From: a virus
DNA: 34,905 nt
Strand: one strand, 5' to 3'
IMG/VR virus record: IMGVR_UViG_3300042006_000132
Span: 1-34,905 of that record
Shown piece after piece: positions 2,036-17,034 of this stretch. A model generated the notes under the pieces. It worked only from the letters and a program-made list of their open reading frames with translations, searched no databases and was not told where the DNA came from. The number at the start of each line of letters is the position of its first letter. Positions within the stretch are counted from its first letter, which is position 1. The position numbers were made by a program, and so were the translations under genes.

Positions 2036-2320
2036 GAAAAAGGTAATTTTGGTAATTTCATTTTTGAGACAGCCGGAAAGCCTTTAAAATCATAGGGTTA
2101 GAGTAGATAGTTAAAGGTAATAATATGGTAATTTGATGGTTAGCCAATTACCTTTTGCCATGGTCAGAACCGGCATTGCTGCAGCCCTTTAAAATCAAGG
2201 GGTTACAGAAAAATTACCTTTACCCTTACCGTAAATTACCTTTTCTGGTAATTGCTCAAAGACCCGGAACACAAGGGCTCCAGCCCGATCCCCCACCCCG
2301 ATTACCAAAATTACCTTTTC
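2036..2320. repeat. Iteron-like GGTAAT cluster, candidate phage origin
   Basis: Ten copies of GGTAAT lie here: five on the + strand (starting at 2042, 2051, 2116, 2127 and 2247) and five on the - strand (ATTACC at 2147, 2213, 2235, 2301 and 2310). Most lie within a longer AAAAGGTAATTT-like context, and several form pairs 9-12 bases apart. A second repeat, CCTTTAAAATCA followed by GGGTTA, occurs at 2081 and 2186. The region is AT-rich and has no convincing gene. It resembles a replication origin for the primase-helicase at 28316, though a regulatory or packaging role cannot be excluded. Confidence 0.55.
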
Positions 2321-2330
2321 CCCAGCCCTC

Positions 2331-2879
2331 AACTGAAAATGGCCACCTGCTGCCATCTGGAAAACAGATCGGTCGGGCCACCTAATCCGCGTAAAAAGCC
2401 CGTTCCAGGTAGTGAAGGCCTGTGCAAAGCTCCACGCACGGAGAATCACGCTCCAGCCCACGGCCTGCCTAGCGTTCATGATGCTGACGTGTGTCAACTG
2501 TGTGCGTCTTGGTGCGTGTTTTTGAGAGCTGGGCGGATTGTGAAAACTGGCTGTAGTGAGGGTTTTCCGATTGTTCGCTCAAGCGGGCCGGGGCTACCGG
2601 GAACTGGTGCCCTGCAGTGGCTCCAGATAGCGCTGTGCAACCGCATGACATTTCTCTGCAAAACTTTGCACTCTGTGCAACGGCCGATCACCTATGAAAG
2701 CCCACGGCGGGCTTGGCCTGGAGCCCTGTTTGCACCCCACCGCTCGCTTGCACAAAAAAGGGACACAAAGCCCGTCGGCGGGAGGGGGATAAGTGATTTC
2801 CAGACAGATTTTTTTTGCCAGGAAGTACTTTCCTGATTGCGATATGCTCGGTGCTCTGTGTGCTGAAGGGACCAGGTCG
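2331..2879. other. Non-coding stretch between repeats and first cargo gene
   Basis: About 550 bases with several overlapping open frames on both strands but none with a clear ribosome site, family signature or consistent codon use. The leftward frame ending at 2195 runs through the repeat cluster and is probably fortuitous. The phage cos site could lie between the late genes and attP, as in HP1-type genomes, but I cannot identify it by sequence. Confidence 0.4.
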
Positions 2880-3131
2880 ATGTCTGGAACGCGCTGTGTG
2901 GATTTAACGACCATGGTCATGCCTGAACAGGTGCGGACTCAGGTACTGCGACTACTGGCCAATCTGGAGGTCGCTGACACTGAACAGGCGACGCGGATGG
3001 CTCTTGAACGAGCAGAAGGTTTTGTACTTGGTCTTGAGATGGCCACCTTTCCCAGGCAAATAACTGAATCTTTATACATCGGCTTTGAGAGCGCGGCTGA
3101 AGCCCGACTAGCCCAGATAAAATCTTTGTGA
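2880..3131 (+). CDS. Small hypothetical phage protein
   Basis: An 83-residue protein with no family I can name. I chose the ATG at 2880, because AAGGGA lies about ten bases upstream; a longer frame from 2793 runs through AT-rich non-coding sequence. The protein is mostly predicted helix, with an amphipathic segment VRTQVLRLLANLEVADTEQA and a C-terminal part containing ESLYIGFESAAEARLAQIK. It is soluble, with no signal peptide. It precedes the AT-rich cargo operon by about 75 bases but has ordinary phage composition, so it may be an independent phage gene. Confidence 0.55.
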   Translation: MSGTRCVDLTTMVMPEQVRTQVLRLLANLEVADTEQATRMALERAEGFVLGLEMATFPRQITESLYIGFESAAEARLAQIKSL

Positions 3132-3205
3132 ACAGGTCATTGCGTTGCAGGACACTACCAACTAGACATTGATCTGCAGCATTTAATATGGAAATGGAGT
3201 ACTGC

Positions 3206-4009
3206 ATGCTACTGGGCAAGAGCTGCGCAAAAAGGCATCACATCAGGAATGGAACTCTAAGACTCGGAACTCTTGCCTATTACAGAGCCACTGAAAACCA
3301 AGAGATCGCCGACAAAGGGGAAGGCCAATACAGTTTTACCGTCAAATTAGATGGTGAGGTTCGAGTAAGCACCTACTGGTTTGATACTCTGAATGCAGGA
3401 TTGCAGATAGGAAGTGTTGAGCCGCATTATTACCCAGGCAACATGACAGCTTGGCTAGACAAGATCGATTTCGTGAGAGACGGCCCAGAACACGTAAAGA
3501 TGAAAGATACTGTAATCCGCATCTTTAGAGAGAGCCCCAATTGCTTCGTGTTCTGCATGTCGGCTGTAGAAAGCCTTTCAGAATGCCAAACCATATTCAG
3601 CGGTTACGACGACTGCTGGGGCATTGCCAAGACTCAAGCCAAAGAATTTTGCATTGAAACCGCTAAAATCTTGTTGGAAACTTTAAAAGCTGAGTATCGA
3701 TCAGGCAAGCCTATATTGCCAGAGGGACTACCGGGCGGCTTAGACATAGATAAATTAAGCATCAACTGTATATGGAGCGAGGTGATGTACGTTCCCAGAG
3801 AACTTCACATCAGCGAAGCGAATAATGATACGCTTTCTCAGTTTTTGGAGAAGATGGAATCCATGGCATTTATAAAGCCACCAGAGCCATTCGCCAAAGA
3901 GAAGGAATATCGCTTCCAGTTTAACATCATGCATGGTAATTATTTACTTGAGCCAAGAGTCGAATCCATTATCATTGACGCAAAAAAATTAGCCAGATTT
4001 GTGATCTAG
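3206..4009 (+). CDS. Cargo gene A: unknown soluble protein, DUF2971-like features
   Basis: A protein of 267 residues (273 if the ATG at 3188 is used). The ATG at 3206 is preferred because GGAG lies six bases before it. No signal peptide or membrane helix is seen. The N-terminal part reads IRNGTLRLGTLAYYR followed by E-rich sequence and DKGEG; the C-terminal part has PFAKEKEYRFQFNI. Together these recall DUF2971-like proteins, which start with a small-element-then-YR pattern and end with a KEKEYR motif; this likeness is my inference and weak. The gene is much richer in A+T than its neighbours and is followed after 71 bases by a membrane protein gene. The position between late genes and attP is typical for phage cargo such as toxins or anti-phage systems. 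Confidence 0.7.
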   Translation: MLLGKSCAKRHHIRNGTLRLGTLAYYRATENQEIADKGEGQYSFTVKLDGEVRVSTYWFDTLNAGLQIGSVEPHYYPGNMTAWLDKIDFVRDGPEHVKMKDTVIRIFRESPNCFVFCMSAVESLSECQTIFSGYDDCWGIAKTQAKEFCIETAKILLETLKAEYRSGKPILPEGLPGGLDIDKLSINCIWSEVMYVPRELHISEANNDTLSQFLEKMESMAFIKPPEPFAKEKEYRFQFNIMHGNYLLEPRVESIIIDAKKLARFVI

Positions 4010-4080: not shown

Positions 4081-5079
4081 ATGACTCAAGACTGGAATTG
4101 GTTTTTTAGTTCCTTATCTCAATCAGCCGCAGCGATAGTCGGTATTTTTGGCGCATTCATCATCACCAAAATCTTTTCCCACCAATCTTTGTTTATCGAG
4201 AAAAGCAACAGAATAAAACAACTGGTCAATCAGGCGCGACGCATATCCGAAACTGCCAATAGCTTTAACGTCAAATGGCTAAACGACGGCTGGAACGAAA
4301 GCGAATACAGGGACTTCCATCAGCGGGTAGACGATACGTATCCGGATATCGAAGATGCAGAGCTTATACCTGATGATTTTCTTGATGACTTCATCAAAGA
4401 AGGCAAATTTTCGAGATACACAGACCGGAACGACATCATGAGCGAACTCCGTCATATAGCCCGCTCCATAGCAAATGAAAACACGTACAAACGAAGACAA
4501 AAAGAGCATGCTGAAAGAGCCAAAGAAGGCGATCAGAATCTAGCATTTCCAACTATTTCCAACATGATGCGTTCGCTAACGATAGCGAACACCAATCAAA
4601 AAAGCATCCATAGCTCTTTTCAGAGTTCGATGCCGGCGCCTTGGGACGCCTTAGGCAAGACGAGAGAAGGCCTGGGGGCGAGCTACCGGGAAGCTCGGCA
4701 TCACGCTCGTGAAAGTGCTATTTTTTTGGAATCTATCGAAGGAAACCCGGAGTCTCCGCGACTGATATCCTTAGCGCTCCTACTGGTGCTAATAATATTT
4801 TTCTCCGGTGTAATCTATCCTTTGAGCTTCATGCCTGCAAGCGGCCCGCCTAACATAGAGTTATCCATAGAAGCCATCAAATTCCATGTATGCTCTTTTA
4901 AAGGTTTCTTGCTGGGACTTATAGGAACCGCATTTACTGTAATTGTGACCATATTCTTCGTAACAAACGATCGCATGAAGTATTTAGCGTCTGACATCGA
5001 GCAAATAAGAAAACTCACTGACGTTAGCTGGTACTGCGACAGCTTCAAATTCGTTGCCCAGCACGTTGATCAAGATTAA
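4081..5079 (+). CDS. Cargo gene B: three-helix membrane protein of unknown function
   Basis: A 332-residue protein. One membrane helix lies near the N-terminus (about residues 12-31, with QSAAAIVGIFGAFIITKIF), then about 195 charged residues that should be soluble, then two further helices (about 228-250 and 275-297) and a short charged tail. GAGG precedes the ATG by nine bases. It is AT-rich like cargo gene A and probably in one operon with it. Its stop codon overlaps the stop of the convergent spike gene by four bases. I recognise no family. A membrane effector paired with a soluble sensor is a common layout in abortive-infection systems, but that role is inference. Confidence 0.75.
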   Translation: MTQDWNWFFSSLSQSAAAIVGIFGAFIITKIFSHQSLFIEKSNRIKQLVNQARRISETANSFNVKWLNDGWNESEYRDFHQRVDDTYPDIEDAELIPDDFLDDFIKEGKFSRYTDRNDIMSELRHIARSIANENTYKRRQKEHAERAKEGDQNLAFPTISNMMRSLTIANTNQKSIHSSFQSSMPAPWDALGKTREGLGASYREARHHARESAIFLESIEGNPESPRLISLALLLVLIIFFSGVIYPLSFMPASGPPNIELSIEAIKFHVCSFKGFLLGLIGTAFTVIVTIFFVTNDRMKYLASDIEQIRKLTDVSWYCDSFKFVAQHVDQD

Positions 5080-6047
5080 AGGGTGACCGACCCCAACTCT
5101 GCGGACAGCAGCCCAGCTTTCGTAGCGTCGCTGCTGAATGCAGCCGCTTGAGTAGGAATCGGCGAAGGCCCATGTGTATGCGCTGCTAGCTCAGTGGCAA
5201 TCTGCTGAATCAGATCCAGTGTGTCGCAAACCACTCGAAATATATTGACGTTTTTCGAGCCAACATGACTTTTTGGCGCGCTTAACTGTTGGCTAATACC
5301 AGCTACGCTTTCGCGCAGCCCCTGAATGCGTTCATGCATATCCCCACCGACCGCCGCGTTGTACTTCTTGCTGACCACAAGGTTGTAGTCGCGACCGGTC
5401 GCCTGGTGCAGGTCATCCACTGCCGCCAGGCTCGCAGTGCCGCCTGACAGCAGCTTGAGCGCGCCCAGGGCTTCGATCTTCTTGACTCCCCCCACCGTCT
5501 CGGTCGAGTGATGCTCGACGTCCTGCGTGTGGCTCTGAAACTGCTCGCGATTGCCCAGGGCCTGCACTTCGCGCTCGATCGCTTCGTCGCGGATCTTGCC
5601 ATCGGTGCTCCTGGTCCAGTTGCCGTCCGCGTCGACGCGCTGTTGTACCGCGTCACTGTGCTGCCACACCTGGTCGCCCTTTGGCACCCTGGGCAGGCTC
5701 AGACCGTGCGGCAGGATCGTCTGGATATAGGGGCTGCTCGGCAGGCCGTAGGCGAAACAGACCACCACGCGGGTGCCCTCTTCCGGAAACCCGTACATGC
5801 CCATTTCTTCCCCGCCATTGGCCAGCGGCAGCGGCACGCCCGACAGGATCGGCATGTCCGGATCGGACTCGCCGTCTGGGGTCAGCACTTCGATGTCGAC
5901 CGCGTAGCGCGGCCGGAAGTCGTCACACAGCCCGGCACCCGCCGGCGCGTCGGCCACTCCCACCACCCGGGCAAAACGCGGCAGGTGGTAGCCGCCAGTC
6001 AGCTCGGGGAATTGACGCTCTACGCTGCGCTTTATTGACTCGTCCAT
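5076..6047 (-). CDS. Baseplate spike protein (gpV-like)
   Basis: A 323-residue protein that should form the needle under the baseplate that pierces the outer membrane. The N-terminal third (to about residue 120) looks like the OB-fold domain of gpV/gp5-type proteins, with GMYGFPEEGTRVVVCFAYG. The middle is polar and repetitive, as expected for the triple beta-helix shaft. The C-terminal part carries AAHTHGPSPIP; a His-x-His motif near the tip binds iron in P2 gpV, which supports the assignment. It is longer than P2 gpV (211 residues). It is the last gene of the late operon and overlaps the hub gene by 16 bases. Confidence 0.85.
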   Translation of the reverse strand: MDESIKRSVERQFPELTGGYHLPRFARVVGVADAPAGAGLCDDFRPRYAVDIEVLTPDGESDPDMPILSGVPLPLANGGEEMGMYGFPEEGTRVVVCFAYGLPSSPYIQTILPHGLSLPRVPKGDQVWQHSDAVQQRVDADGNWTRSTDGKIRDEAIEREVQALGNREQFQSHTQDVEHHSTETVGGVKKIEALGALKLLSGGTASLAAVDDLHQATGRDYNLVVSKKYNAAVGGDMHERIQGLRESVAGISQQLSAPKSHVGSKNVNIFRVVCDTLDLIQQIATELAAHTHGPSPIPTQAAAFSSDATKAGLLSAELGSVTL

Positions 6048-6730
6048 TTGATCGCCATCTGTGTGCCGGCGAGCGTCACGCTGGTGATGCGCTCCCCTTG
6101 GTTGATTGTTGCGCCCGGACGCAGGCCTGGCAGGGCCGCGATCATTGCGCTCTGGTTGCCCTGGTAACCGTCGAACAGGCTTACCGGGAGTTGCAGCGGC
6201 GCGCGTGCGCCGAAAAAGCTGTCAGCCCAGGATCCGGCGAACACCTCGCCGTCGCCCTGCTGCTGCCAGATGAAGTCGTCGATACCGAAGACCTTGGCCA
6301 GGCTGTCCATGGCCAGCGTGCCGGAGGCCAGGCTGTAGAAGAACGGGGCCTTGGCCCGCGTGTAATCCCGATCGGGCACACGGAAACGCAGGCCGGTCTT
6401 GCTGCTCACGTCGGCCAGCACCGCCCGCATGTCGACGTGCCGCAGGTTCATCGGCAGCTTGCCGGCCAGTACAGCGGCCAGCTCGCGGCAGTACACCACC
6501 TGCTCGATGCCATTAGCCGCGGTGCAGCGTTCGACGTAGCCAATGAAGTGCCGTTGCAGCGCGGACTCGTTGTAACCGATGTCCAGCGTGACCAGGCCTT
6601 TGACCTGCGCGCCGGCCTGCACCGTGAAGGTCGCCCGCCCCGGGCTCTTGAGATCCAGGCGAACATCATCGTTCACCAGGGAAACGACCGCGCCGTCGAT
6701 GGTCAGCACCTTGTGCAGTTTCATGCTCAT
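6032..6730 (-). CDS. Baseplate hub protein (gp27/VgrG-N-like)
   Basis: A 232-residue protein probably forming the hub ring between tail tube and spike. The N-terminal part (VLTIDGAVVSLVNDDVRLDL, ATFTVQAG) and the following FIGYVERC resemble the first tube-like domains of gp27/gpD proteins, and its place just upstream of the spike gene fits. It is shorter than P2 gpD (387 residues), so it may be a compact hub or only part of the usual fold. The start ATG overlaps the preceding stop (ATGA), which indicates translational coupling. Confidence 0.7.
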   Translation of the reverse strand: MSMKLHKVLTIDGAVVSLVNDDVRLDLKSPGRATFTVQAGAQVKGLVTLDIGYNESALQRHFIGYVERCTAANGIEQVVYCRELAAVLAGKLPMNLRHVDMRAVLADVSSKTGLRFRVPDRDYTRAKAPFFYSLASGTLAMDSLAKVFGIDDFIWQQQGDGEVFAGSWADSFFGARAPLQLPVSLFDGYQGNQSAMIAALPGLRPGATINQGERITSVTLAGTQMAIKWTSQ

Positions 6731-12387: not shown

Positions 12388-12701
12388 AGGGTCACCTCGA
12401 TCGAGCCGAACTCAAGGGTGGTCGCCGTGACCAGGTACTGCCCCGGCTCAACCTGGGTGATCGATGCGGTGCCCGGTACCAGGCGCAGGTCGGTTTCCAC
12501 CAGCAGCTCCAATTGCTGGATGCAGTCGCGCTGCCGCAGGCGGTCACGCTCGGCCACCAGGGTGACCAGCAGGCCGCTGTCGCGGATCATGTGCGCGATG
12601 TCCTGGGCGATGCAGGCGCGGTCTTCGACCGGCTCAGGCTGACGGGAGGGATCGAGCACCAGGTCGTTGTCCTCGATCAGCAGATCGATATAGACACTCA
12701 T
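12384..12701 (-). CDS. DUF2590-type phage protein
   Basis: A 105-residue protein beginning MSVYIDLLIEDNDLVLDPS. The short pattern of an N-terminal strand, DLxLDxxxxP, then IAQDIAHMIRDSGLL and a C-terminal beta part agrees with DUF2590 proteins found between tape measure and baseplate J in HP1/K139-type phages. It likely belongs to the inner baseplate, in the place of P2 gpW. The frame is open for another 500 codons upstream, but that is the shadow of the tape measure gene; the ATG at 12701 overlaps its stop (ATGA). Confidence 0.8.
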   Translation of the reverse strand: MSVYIDLLIEDNDLVLDPSRQPEPVEDRACIAQDIAHMIRDSGLLVTLVAERDRLRQRDCIQQLELLVETDLRLVPGTASITQVEPGQYLVTATTLEFGSIEVTL

Positions 12702-14689
12702 CCGCCGATCGCCATGTTCATCATCCCTTCCATCTCCAGAGGGGTCATGGGTTTGCTGGTGTAGATGTTCACGTTGCCCACCTTGTTGCCGTTGGAATTC
12801 TGGTTGGTGTTGTTCTGGATGCTGGTCAGCAAGCCGCCCCGGGGCACGGCTTCCGGCCGGGAGGGTGAAAGGCTGCCCGTGGTCGCTGCAGGCCGTGTCA
12901 GCAGCTCGGCCCCTTGCGGGACGCCTGCAGGCACTACCGATGCTTGAATGCCCGGGATCTCGGGGGCCTTGGGCATGTCGCCAAAGGCCGCATCGATCTC
13001 GACGCCCGGAATCTTGTTGAGCATGTCGATCAGGCCGTTGATGGCGGTGCGGAAGATGGCGACGATGCCGTCCCAGGCGGCCGACGCCATGCCGGTCCAG
13101 CCGCCGATCGAGCCGAACCAGTCCGACAGGCTCTGGAGCTGCGCGGCGATCCACTGGAACGCGGCGGTGTTCATCAGCGCGCCGGTCCACTGGTCCCAGT
13201 AGACGACTGCGGCAACGACCGCCACGCCCAGCGCGATGATGCCGGCGACGATCAGCAGCACCGGGTTGGCCAGCATGGCGGCGTTGACCAGCCAGATCGC
13301 GCCCTGCCACAGCAACATGCCGGTGCGGACCAGGGCCATCCAGGTGTACATGGCCACCAGGCCAACGACGAACGCGGTCACCATGACGGTGTGGAAGACG
13401 AACATGGCGATCGAGCGGAAGCCCGTCCAGGTCAGGATCTTCCAGACCGTGACCAGGGCCAGCCACACCATCTTGCTGATGCCCACCATCAGGGTCATGG
13501 CGGACATCGCCGCGACCAGGCCGAACACGGCCAGTACGGTGATGCCCAGCACGCGGGTGATGTTGGGGAACAGCTGCGTCCAGCGGGTCAGTGTCGAGGC
13601 GATTCCGACCAGCCGGTCCATCAGCGGTGTCAGCATCGGAATCAGCGCCTGGCCGAAGGCAATGCGCAGCGCCTGCACGGCCGCGCCGAACTGCTGCCAC
13701 GGATCGACCATGGCCTTGGCCATCTTCTCGGCGTTCTCCAGACCGCGCACCTTGCCCAGCTCGCTGATGCCGCTGCGCAGCCGGTCGGTGTCCTTGGCCA
13801 GCGCCCCGATCACCTGGGCACCTTCGCCGCCGAAGGCCTCGGTCAGCTTGGTGCCGGCGGCCGCCGTGGTCAGGTCGCCGTACTTGCCCTGCAGCTTGTC
13901 CAGGATCTGGATCATCGGCAGCGTGTTGCCGGCGGCGTCGGTGAACGACAGGCCGGTTTTCTCGGCAGCAGCCCCGATGTTTTCGAAGAACGCCTTGTAG
14001 CGCCCGCCGGCGTCGCCGCCTTCCATGGTGCTCGACAGCGTGCCGATCACCGCCATCTGCTCGGCCACGCTGATGCCTGCAGTGGTGGCGATCGCCCCGA
14101 CTTCCTTGAAGGCGTCCTTGAGCTGCGCGCCGTCGGTGCGGAACAGCTTCACCGCCAGGGCGGTCTGCCCCGTCAGCTGCTCGACCCATTCGACCTTGCC
14201 CATCTTGTCGGCTTCGGTCTTGAACAGGGTGTACATGGTGCCGAGATAGGCGCTGGTGGTTTCGGCGTCGGCTTTGGTCACCTTGGCCAGCAGGCCGCTT
14301 GCGGCGGTGATCGATGCCAGCTGGTCGCCGACCAGGCCCTTGATCGCCCCTTCAATGGTGCGCGACGACGCCACGAATTCGGCGGCGCTGGTCGCGTAGG
14401 TCACGGAGAATTCCAGCGCCTTGCTGTTGAGCGCGGTCAGCGCGTCTTCAGCGACGCCCAGCGCACGCACGTCGCCCAATGCCCGATTGACCTCCAACGC
14501 CGGTTCCAGGGATTCGGTGATGGCCACGCCGGCACCGACCATGCCGGCAAGCCCCGCGCCCATCTTCACGATGTTCTGCTGGCCCTGGTCGGCAAGGTCG
14601 GTGAAGCTGGTTTTCACCTTGCCCAGGGGCGCGCTGACCTTGTCGGTCAGACTCAGGATGAAAGCCAGGCGGGCGGCACGATCAGCCAT
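12698..14689 (-). CDS. Tail tape measure protein
   Basis: A 663-residue protein that sets tail length and forms the core inside the tube. The N-terminal region (RAARLAFILSLTDKVSAPLGKVK) and the following part with AFKEVGAIATTAGISVAEQMAVIGTLSST are typical of the TMP family TP901-type core (about residues 60-330). A very hydrophobic segment follows at about 373-500, with several potential membrane helices for passage of DNA through the inner membrane. The C-terminus is polar and Asn-rich. It starts six bases behind the frameshifted chaperone stop, the usual order of the two genes. Confidence 0.9.
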   Translation of the reverse strand: MADRAARLAFILSLTDKVSAPLGKVKTSFTDLADQGQQNIVKMGAGLAGMVGAGVAITESLEPALEVNRALGDVRALGVAEDALTALNSKALEFSVTYATSAAEFVASSRTIEGAIKGLVGDQLASITAASGLLAKVTKADAETTSAYLGTMYTLFKTEADKMGKVEWVEQLTGQTALAVKLFRTDGAQLKDAFKEVGAIATTAGISVAEQMAVIGTLSSTMEGGDAGGRYKAFFENIGAAAEKTGLSFTDAAGNTLPMIQILDKLQGKYGDLTTAAAGTKLTEAFGGEGAQVIGALAKDTDRLRSGISELGKVRGLENAEKMAKAMVDPWQQFGAAVQALRIAFGQALIPMLTPLMDRLVGIASTLTRWTQLFPNITRVLGITVLAVFGLVAAMSAMTLMVGISKMVWLALVTVWKILTWTGFRSIAMFVFHTVMVTAFVVGLVAMYTWMALVRTGMLLWQGAIWLVNAAMLANPVLLIVAGIIALGVAVVAAVVYWDQWTGALMNTAAFQWIAAQLQSLSDWFGSIGGWTGMASAAWDGIVAIFRTAINGLIDMLNKIPGVEIDAAFGDMPKAPEIPGIQASVVPAGVPQGAELLTRPAATTGSLSPSRPEAVPRGGLLTSIQNNTNQNSNGNKVGNVNIYTSKPMTPLEMEGMMNMAIGG

Positions 14690-14694
14690 CAGGG

Positions 14695-15149
14695 TTATCC
14701 GTTAAAGGCAATGGAAATGCCGTTGGCCACGGCCATTTCCATGCGTCTCCAGTGTTCGTCGTCCAGCCACTTGGCGGTGCCCATGTTCTCGATCGTGGGC
14801 ACCGCGCCGGGTAGCCAGCGTTGGGTCAGGGCCAGCAACTGGCCCAGTCCGTCCTCGGTCAGGCCTTCGGCGTGCGCGACGGCTTTTTTACGATCACTTC
14901 CACGTCAGGCGAGTACTCTTCGAGCAGCGCGCCGGCGATGGTCATGGTGCTGACCGGGTTTTCCAGCAGCGGCTTGAGCGCAGCTTTCTCGTCCTGTTTC
15001 ACGGTGCCCATCAGCAGGTTGTGCGCCGGGGCGACCTTGTTGGCCTGGGTGGTCGAGTTGAAGTACTTGGTGATGTCCTGGGGCGTCAGGCTGAACGTGA
15101 ATTCCTGCGCGCCGATTTCCAGGGTGATGTCGCGGTTTACTTCGCTCAT
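14695..15149 (-). CDS. Tail assembly chaperone, long form by -1 frameshift
   Basis: Reading of the short chaperone frame up to A-AAA-AAG at 14889-14883 and then in the -1 frame gives 89 + 62 = 151 residues. The extension begins AVAHAEGLTEDGLGQLLALT, ends MAVANGISIAFNG, and stops with TAA at 14695, six bases before the tape measure ATG. The region 14698-14880 has no other gene and would otherwise be an odd gap in a tightly packed operon. A short and a frameshifted long chaperone that bind the tape measure during tail assembly are known from lambda G/GT and P2 E/E+E'. The exact slip rate is unknown. Confidence 0.85.
14859..15149 (-). CDS. Tail assembly chaperone, short form
   Basis: A 96-residue protein beginning MSEVNRDITLEIGAQEFTF, in the manner of the phage tail assembly chaperone family in HP1-type phages (DUF2765-like). 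It has a beta-rich N-terminus, the motif LTPQDITKYFNSTTQANKVAPAHNLL and a helical C-terminus. The zero-frame product ends just after the slippery site, with SRTPKA. It should coat the tape measure protein before the tail tube polymerises round it and is not expected in the virion. A polypurine site ACGGAAAACACC stands before the ATG. Confidence 0.85.
   Translation of the reverse strand: MSEVNRDITLEIGAQEFTFSLTPQDITKYFNSTTQANKVAPAHNLLMGTVKQDEKAALKPLLENPVSTMTIAGALLEEYSPDVEVIVKKPSRTPKA
14883..14889 (-). promoter_or_regulatory. Programmed -1 frameshift heptamer A-AAA-AAG
   Basis: On the minus strand the codons GTA AAA AAG contain the classic slippery heptamer A AAA AAG in the correct register for a -1 shift. 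The -1 frame is open for 62 codons to a stop just before the tape measure gene. I could not assign a stimulating hairpin with confidence, although the GC-rich sequence directly downstream could form one. Confidence 0.85.
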
Positions 15150-16373: not shown

Positions 16374-16582
16374 CGATGAGCCTCTTTCTCGAAAGTGGAC
16401 TGGCACGGCACACAACGGGTCATGCCGCCCAGCGCCTGGCGCGCTGCCGGGATCTCTGCGTCGCAGTCTTCGCAATGGGTCAGGCTTGGCCCGCTCGGGC
16501 GCTTGCGGGCGAGCTGGGCCGCAATGGCCTGGTCGCGTTGCCGCTGCTCCAGGGCCTGGGCGCGATCGAACGGGCAAACCAT
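16370..16582 (-). CDS. TraR/DksA-family zinc-finger protein
   Basis: A 70-residue protein with a four-cysteine zinc finger, C37-x2-C40 and C57-x2-C60, after a charged helical N-terminus (RAQALEQRQRDQAIAAQLARKR). This is the plan of TraR-type proteins, truncated relatives of DksA that bind the secondary channel of RNA polymerase and change promoter use without ppGpp. The longer upstream frame is a shadow of the tube gene; the ATG at 16582 overlaps its stop (TGATG). Such genes are common in the lysis region of P2/HP1-type phages. Whether it acts on host or phage promoters is not known. Confidence 0.85.
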   Translation of the reverse strand: MVCPFDRAQALEQRQRDQAIAAQLARKRPSGPSLTHCEDCDAEIPAARQALGGMTRCVPCQSTFEKEAHR

Positions 16583-17034
16583 CAGGTCAGGCCCTCGATC
16601 TCTGCTGCGCCCAGGTACGGCACGCCGTTGATCTTCACGAAGTCCGGCGAGGTCACGTCGAACGGGATCTTGTGGGTGTTCTTCGCGCCGCCCTTGGGAT
16701 CGATGCTCAGCAGGCTGGAGACGCGCAACTTGCACCCGAACGCCTCGATGCGCAGCTCTTCCTCGCCCGCCTTGGCGAAGAACACGATGTCGAACGGCTC
16801 CAGTTCGCGGAAACTGCCCGCGCTTTTGGCCTGCTCGATCACCAGGTTGAAATTGGTGGTGTCCAGCTCGATCTCGCCGGCCGCCGCGACGTCACCGTCG
16901 ACGTGTCCATTCGGCACGCCCTTGGTCTGGGCGACGGTGCTGTTGTCAGTGATATCCAGGGTTGCCGCCTCAACGTGAACCAGCGAGTCGCCCAGGTTCA
17001 CGTCGAAGTTCTTGCCGCCAACTTTTGCAGCCAT
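16582..17034 (-). CDS. DUF2597-type tail tube protein
   Basis: A 150-residue protein starting MAAKVGGKNFDVNLGDSLVH. This N-terminus and the segment HVDGDVAAAGEIELDTTNFN are typical of DUF2597 proteins, the tail tube protein of HP1/K139-type myophages and the counterpart of P2 gpFII. It would stack as hexamer rings around the tape measure and let DNA pass. It directly follows the sheath gene (three-base gap). The C-terminal half is beta-rich with no membrane segment. Confidence 0.85.
   Translation of the reverse strand: MAAKVGGKNFDVNLGDSLVHVEAATLDITDNSTVAQTKGVPNGHVDGDVAAAGEIELDTTNFNLVIEQAKSAGSFRELEPFDIVFFAKAGEEELRIEAFGCKLRVSSLLSIDPKGGAKNTHKIPFDVTSPDFVKINGVPYLGAAEIEGLT

Follow-up and report, generated by a model that had tools for sequence, protein, structure and literature searches.

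A conserved −1 slip site and a selected −1 frame extension point to two forms of the tail assembly chaperone in an HP1-type Pseudomonas prophage

A conserved −1 frameshift in the tail assembly chaperones of long-tailed phages has been known since 2004 (Xu, Hendrix and Duda; via PMC5009743), and the E/E+E′ frameshift of phage P2 since 2002 (Christie et al.; via PMC3091744). In lambda, as described in PMC5009743, the short form gpG coats the tape measure protein and the rarer gpGT links tail-tube subunits, at a short-to-long ratio of about 30:1, and both leave before the tail is completed. The same source characterizes the heptamer A-AAA-AAG as strongly slippery in E. coli. Here we analyze a chaperone locus in an IMG/VR virus contig of 34,905 nucleotides (the window, taken at its full length), relatives of which are found in Pseudomonas genomes. 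The system it carries is a firmly supported instance of this already known type of phage frameshift.

The locus lies on the minus strand, in the late operon of an HP1-type, P2-like phage that encodes sheath, a tail protein, endolysin, spanin, chaperone, tape measure and baseplate. The gene for the short tail assembly chaperone (96 residues; 14859 to 15149) sits directly upstream of the gene for the tape measure protein (12698 to 14689; PF10145, PHROG 28), the expected chaperone client, with the former ending at 14859 and the latter starting at 14689. Near the end of the chaperone gene, the sequence GT A AAA AAG CCG holds the slippery heptamer A-AAA-AAG (14883 to 14889), in phase with the chaperone frame in the register X XXY YYZ; AAAAAAG occurs only once on the coding strand of the whole 34.9-kb window. 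If one base is reread at the heptamer, translation would enter a −1 frame of 62 codons plus TAA (14695 to 14883, with the stop at 14697 to 14695), giving 89 + 62 = 151 residues, and the last part of the 0 frame (PSRTPKA and its TGA, 14859 to 14882) would also be read in the −1 frame. This recomputation bears out an earlier, sequence-only reading of the same DNA, which had placed A-AAA-AAG in exact register near the end of a 96-residue chaperone and had described 62 open codons and a 151-residue fusion; the distance between the extension and the tape measure ATG, given there as six bases, is five (CCCTG). The expected partner of the extension is a tail protein of PHROG 1182 (16582 to 17034, minus strand), probably the tail tube protein, as its counterpart in phi3 is annotated.

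Two further observations concern other parts of the window. Two minus-strand ORFs that overlap by 16 bases (6032 to 6730 and 5076 to 6047) match successive halves of the baseplate PHROG 2258 (544 positions), so the single baseplate gene of some phages is split in two in this one. On the plus strand, the match between a 194-residue ORF (2252 to 2836) and the PADLOC model PDC-M03A (428 positions) extends over the first 63 residues of the model and no further. This ORF is followed in the same direction by ORFs at 2793 to 3131 and 3188 to 4009; the region from 2252 to 4009 may hold a candidate defence gene that has been split or disrupted.

The closest parallel in layout is P2 gpE/E+E′, for which our layout analysis, run as a positive control, recovered E (91 residues) and E+E′ (142 residues). 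As in the window, the P2 gene stands just before the tape measure gene, encodes products of similar lengths and has an in-phase heptamer for a −1 shift near its 3′ end; moreover, its two Pfam families occupy positions in the fusion that match those of the two in HP1 (for the second family, 104 to 139 in P2 and 104 to 145 in HP1). The two systems differ in the heptamer itself (T-TTT-TTG in P2), in their Pfam families (PF10109 and PF06528 in P2, PF10963 and PF21830 in the window), in the end of the extension, which runs past the tape measure start in P2 and stops five bases short of it here, and in the lysis genes, which in the window separate the tail tube gene from the chaperone, unlike in P2. 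A comparison by hhalign of a 20-sequence profile with the single P2 fusion gave a probability of homology of only 0.4%, and neither PF10109 nor PF06528 gave a match. The proposed agreement with the short/long chaperone rule of lambda and P2-like phages holds for the layout of the P2 locus, though no sequence homology to it was detected, and by this analogy the window chaperone would work like gpE/E+E′. Lambda gpG/gpGT, set beside the window by its description, likewise pairs a short chaperone with a −1 extended form just before the tape measure gene. Homologues of the window chaperone are gp36/gp36a of Pseudoalteromonas phage ACA1 and orf26 of HP1 and HP2; the heptamer differs from that of the window, being A-AAA-AAA in ACA1 and A-AAA-AAC in HP1, where the stop follows directly.

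Both halves of the fusion belong to described protein families. The chaperone matches PF10963 (Phage_TAC_10; E = 1.6e-19, 70.2 bits, cut-off 25.7) and the extension PF21830 (DUF6890; E = 2e-20, 72.7 bits, cut-off 23.6), so that the two families follow each other in order across the frameshift, both above their cut-offs, as they also do in the HP1 fusion. PHROGs 1214 (chaperone) and 7050 (extension) agree with these assignments; neither half was matched in NCBIfam. DUF6890 is entered in Pfam as a family of unknown function, and our literature search found no paper naming it. A search of PDB sequences returned marginal matches only, including 3fgx at E = 0.81. AlphaFold models the short chaperone confidently (pLDDT 87.5), and among 568 chains compared the best structural match to this model is again 3fgx, an uncharacterized protein (Z = 9.0), followed by the HK97 tail assembly chaperone 2ob9 (3.9 Å over 76 residues) with a Z of 5.3, middling by the tool's own note. 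Foldseek gave E = 0.37 for the HK97-like chaperone fold, and the 2ob9 match is a suggestive hint, at the level of predicted structure, of a chaperone fold of the HK97 gp13 type. The extension is predicted to form a two-helix hairpin (residues 2 to 23 and 31 to 61, pLDDT 87.7).

By itself, an open −1 frame says little: about 22% of dinucleotide-matched random DNA (61% G+C) would be open for 62 codons, and many neighboring late genes likewise have a −1 frame that stays open far beyond the stop. We rejected openness as evidence on these grounds, and the case for two chaperone forms rests instead on comparison with relatives. We assembled 361 loci, corresponding to 274 distinct sequences, most of which came from queries of viral contigs and genomes with the chaperone half only and are thus unbiased towards an open −1 frame; relatives in named phages were found with the whole fusion (tblastn over both frames). 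Scanning 369 further genomes for PF10963 added one new locus. HP1, HP2 and other HP1-type Peduoviridae are among the matches, so the reference group named by the sequence-only reading was well chosen, and the heptamer and −1 frame, on whose conservation that reading had staked itself, are kept. An in-phase heptamer is present in 271 of the 274 distinct sequences (A-AAA-AAG in 113, A-AAA-AAA in 109 and A-AAA-AAC in 49), and the extension is 60 to 64 residues long in 264. Nearly all A-AAA-AAG relatives have their 0-frame stop at a constant distance of 21 nt.

When the heptamer-bearing sequences were clustered at 95% identity, GTA-AAA proved invariant in all 107 clusters, the three sequences with no heptamer standing outside this set. 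Elsewhere in the same gene of A-AAA-AAG clusters, GTA accounts for only 10 of 255 other valine codons (4%) and AAA for 40 of 191 other lysine codons, which amounts to a strong synonymous constraint on the slip site. Among the exceptions, L263/L265 and L268 have A-AAG-AAA in place of the heptamer; the A-AAG tetramer is retained there and the −1 frame is uninterrupted, so this is possibly a shift site of the tetramer type. In one further contig the A run is one base longer and both frames are fused outright (L218), and in another it is one base shorter (L163). All of these exceptions may be natural variants, slippage variants in the case of L218 and L163, or sequence errors.

The extension itself shows the substitution pattern of a coding sequence in one frame. 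For the window's group, dN/dS is 0.13 in the −1 frame, compared with 1.16 and 2.84 in the other frames, and 64% of substitutions fall at third positions; the corresponding −1 frame values for three other groups are 0.09, 0.19 and 0.23. These ratios indicate that the extension is evolving as protein, under purifying selection in the −1 frame only.

We conclude that two forms of the chaperone are very probably made in this Pseudomonas prophage, a relative of HP1 and P2, through a −1 slip at A-AAA-AAG. Most ribosomes would reach the TGA and release the 96-residue form, whose expected role is to coat the tape measure protein. A fraction would slip back one base, with tRNA-Lys on A-AAA-AAG re-pairing with AAA AAA, and would then read 62 further codons to yield the 151-residue form, whose two-helix DUF6890 extension, following the chaperone domain, is expected to bring tail-tube subunits to a tape measure coated with chaperone. 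Slippage and its rate are what we infer from the comparisons, and the division of labor between the forms is modeled on lambda gpG/gpGT.

Alternatively, the extension could be translated as a small gene in its own right, beginning at a TTG in the window and at ATG, GTG or CTG elsewhere. This is how it is called in phi3, ev239 and Vibrio phages and, in RefSeq, in E. coli LH13-b (L368, 556 to 750), where the annotated DUF6890 gene begins at a CTG overlapping the chaperone stop; the PHROG 7050 and DUF6890 profiles also start close to such codons. However, both the positions and the codons of these starts vary between relatives, and 26 of the 107 clusters lack ATG, GTG and TTG in the −1 frame as far as residue 24 of the extension. 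Furthermore, purifying selection is equally strong upstream of the usual start position: the exclusive codons from the chaperone stop to residue 16 of the extension, the first common start position (a stretch that in the window lies within AVAHAEGLTEDGLGQLLALTQR), have a dN/dS of 0.086. This low ratio, together with the lack of conserved −1 start codons, favors a fusion product over a separate gene. A start at residue 16 would also cut the first predicted helix (residues 2 to 23) in half, and a separate gene would leave the invariant GTA-AAA-AA(G/A/C) unexplained. We consider a separate gene very improbable, and the E. coli LH13-b gene is evidently a mis-called frameshift product.

It is slightly less probable still that RNA polymerase, rather than the ribosome, slips on the A run and produces a fraction of frameshifted mRNAs. 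An A run is indeed present at the site in every relative and reaches seven A in the A-AAA-AAA group. Yet the run in the window has just six, while the runs at which a large proportion of genomes show evident selection against slippage have nine A or T (PMC1088944); moreover, the conserved unit is an in-phase heptamer with G, A or C as its last base and not a longer run. As for a coincidence of heptamer and open frame, or a decayed fused gene, the share of matched random DNA that is open over this length counts for little against a heptamer kept in nearly all distinct relatives and −1 frame selection across phages of several bacterial families, and the comparison with relatives already refutes it.

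Returning to ribosomal slippage, we compared how the site is embedded in different relatives. Pseudomonas relatives and some marine ones have 21 nt between the heptamer and the 0-frame stop; in those from Vibrio, Aeromonas, enterobacteria and Pasteurellaceae, the stop abuts the heptamer (AAA-TAG, AAC-TGA, AAC-TAA). The 45 nt after the heptamer were then compared with synonymous shuffles, a z below −1.5 being taken as unusually structured. By this measure, 12 of 13 A-AAA-AAA clusters with an abutting stop, three of seven A-AAA-AAC clusters and two of five A-AAA-AAA clusters with a later stop are unusually structured, compared with none of the 23 clusters of the window's own A-AAA-AAG group, for which the overlap codons were free to vary in the shuffles. 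An upstream Shine-Dalgarno stimulator showed no enrichment over synonymous shuffles. In the Vibrio-type relatives, an eight-pair stem starting 8 nt after A-AAA-AAA is almost fully kept in 20 distinct sequences (L089, L093 to L095, L175 to L207), and in L089 stem pairs are changed with pairing preserved; these sequences were chosen by their stem-side motifs and the stem counted directly, so they illustrate a result for which the shuffle test is the evidence. The stem is likely a frameshift stimulator that the window's group lacks.

Two other structures deserve mention. Three relatives (L215, L226 and L229) have GCCC-TTGTTC-GGGC followed by CGAACAA after the heptamer, possibly forming an H-type pseudoknot rather than a simple hairpin. 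For the window's group, a hairpin (GGGCCAG/CTGGCCC) is predicted some 37 nt beyond the heptamer; it was rejected as a candidate, being too distant for a usual stimulator and showing no compensatory pair changes among 12 sequences.

Less slippery heptamers tend to be accompanied by a hairpin close downstream, which is absent from A-AAA-AAG members. This relationship is new here, fits the known ranking of heptamers by slipperiness in E. coli, and is a correlation confounded with host group and base composition. It is tempting to speculate, at somewhat less than even odds, that the frameshift cassettes of HP1-type chaperones are interchangeable and tuned to the strength of the heptamer: a strong A-AAA-AAG with no nearby stimulator and a stop 21 nt away in Pseudomonas, versus A-AAA-AAA or A-AAA-AAC in Vibrio and enterobacteria, where a stop usually abuts the heptamer and a hairpin often starts about 8 nt downstream.

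For the family, the comparisons assign DUF6890/PHROG 7050 as the frameshift-encoded second half of the HP1-type tail chaperone, not a gene of its own. This assignment is new here and supplies a role for a Pfam family listed without a known function, placed where P2 has its E′ part. It also makes current annotation correctable: RefSeq and many phage records list DUF6890 as a stand-alone gene or miss it, and most HP1-type records give the short form only or the extension as a separate gene. Among 22 inspected phage records of relatives, only the GenBank record of ACA1 annotates the homologous −1 join, by analogy with P2. The earlier statement that standard gene calling leaves the extension empty is only partly true for relatives, several of which have part of it called in their records as a small ORF of its own. 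The trade-offs among heptamer strength, stop-codon context and hairpins in bacterial frameshifting could be followed across the natural series that the two cassette forms provide, and, if the idea of tuned cassettes is true, phages of this type would reach an equal output ratio by different routes in different hosts.
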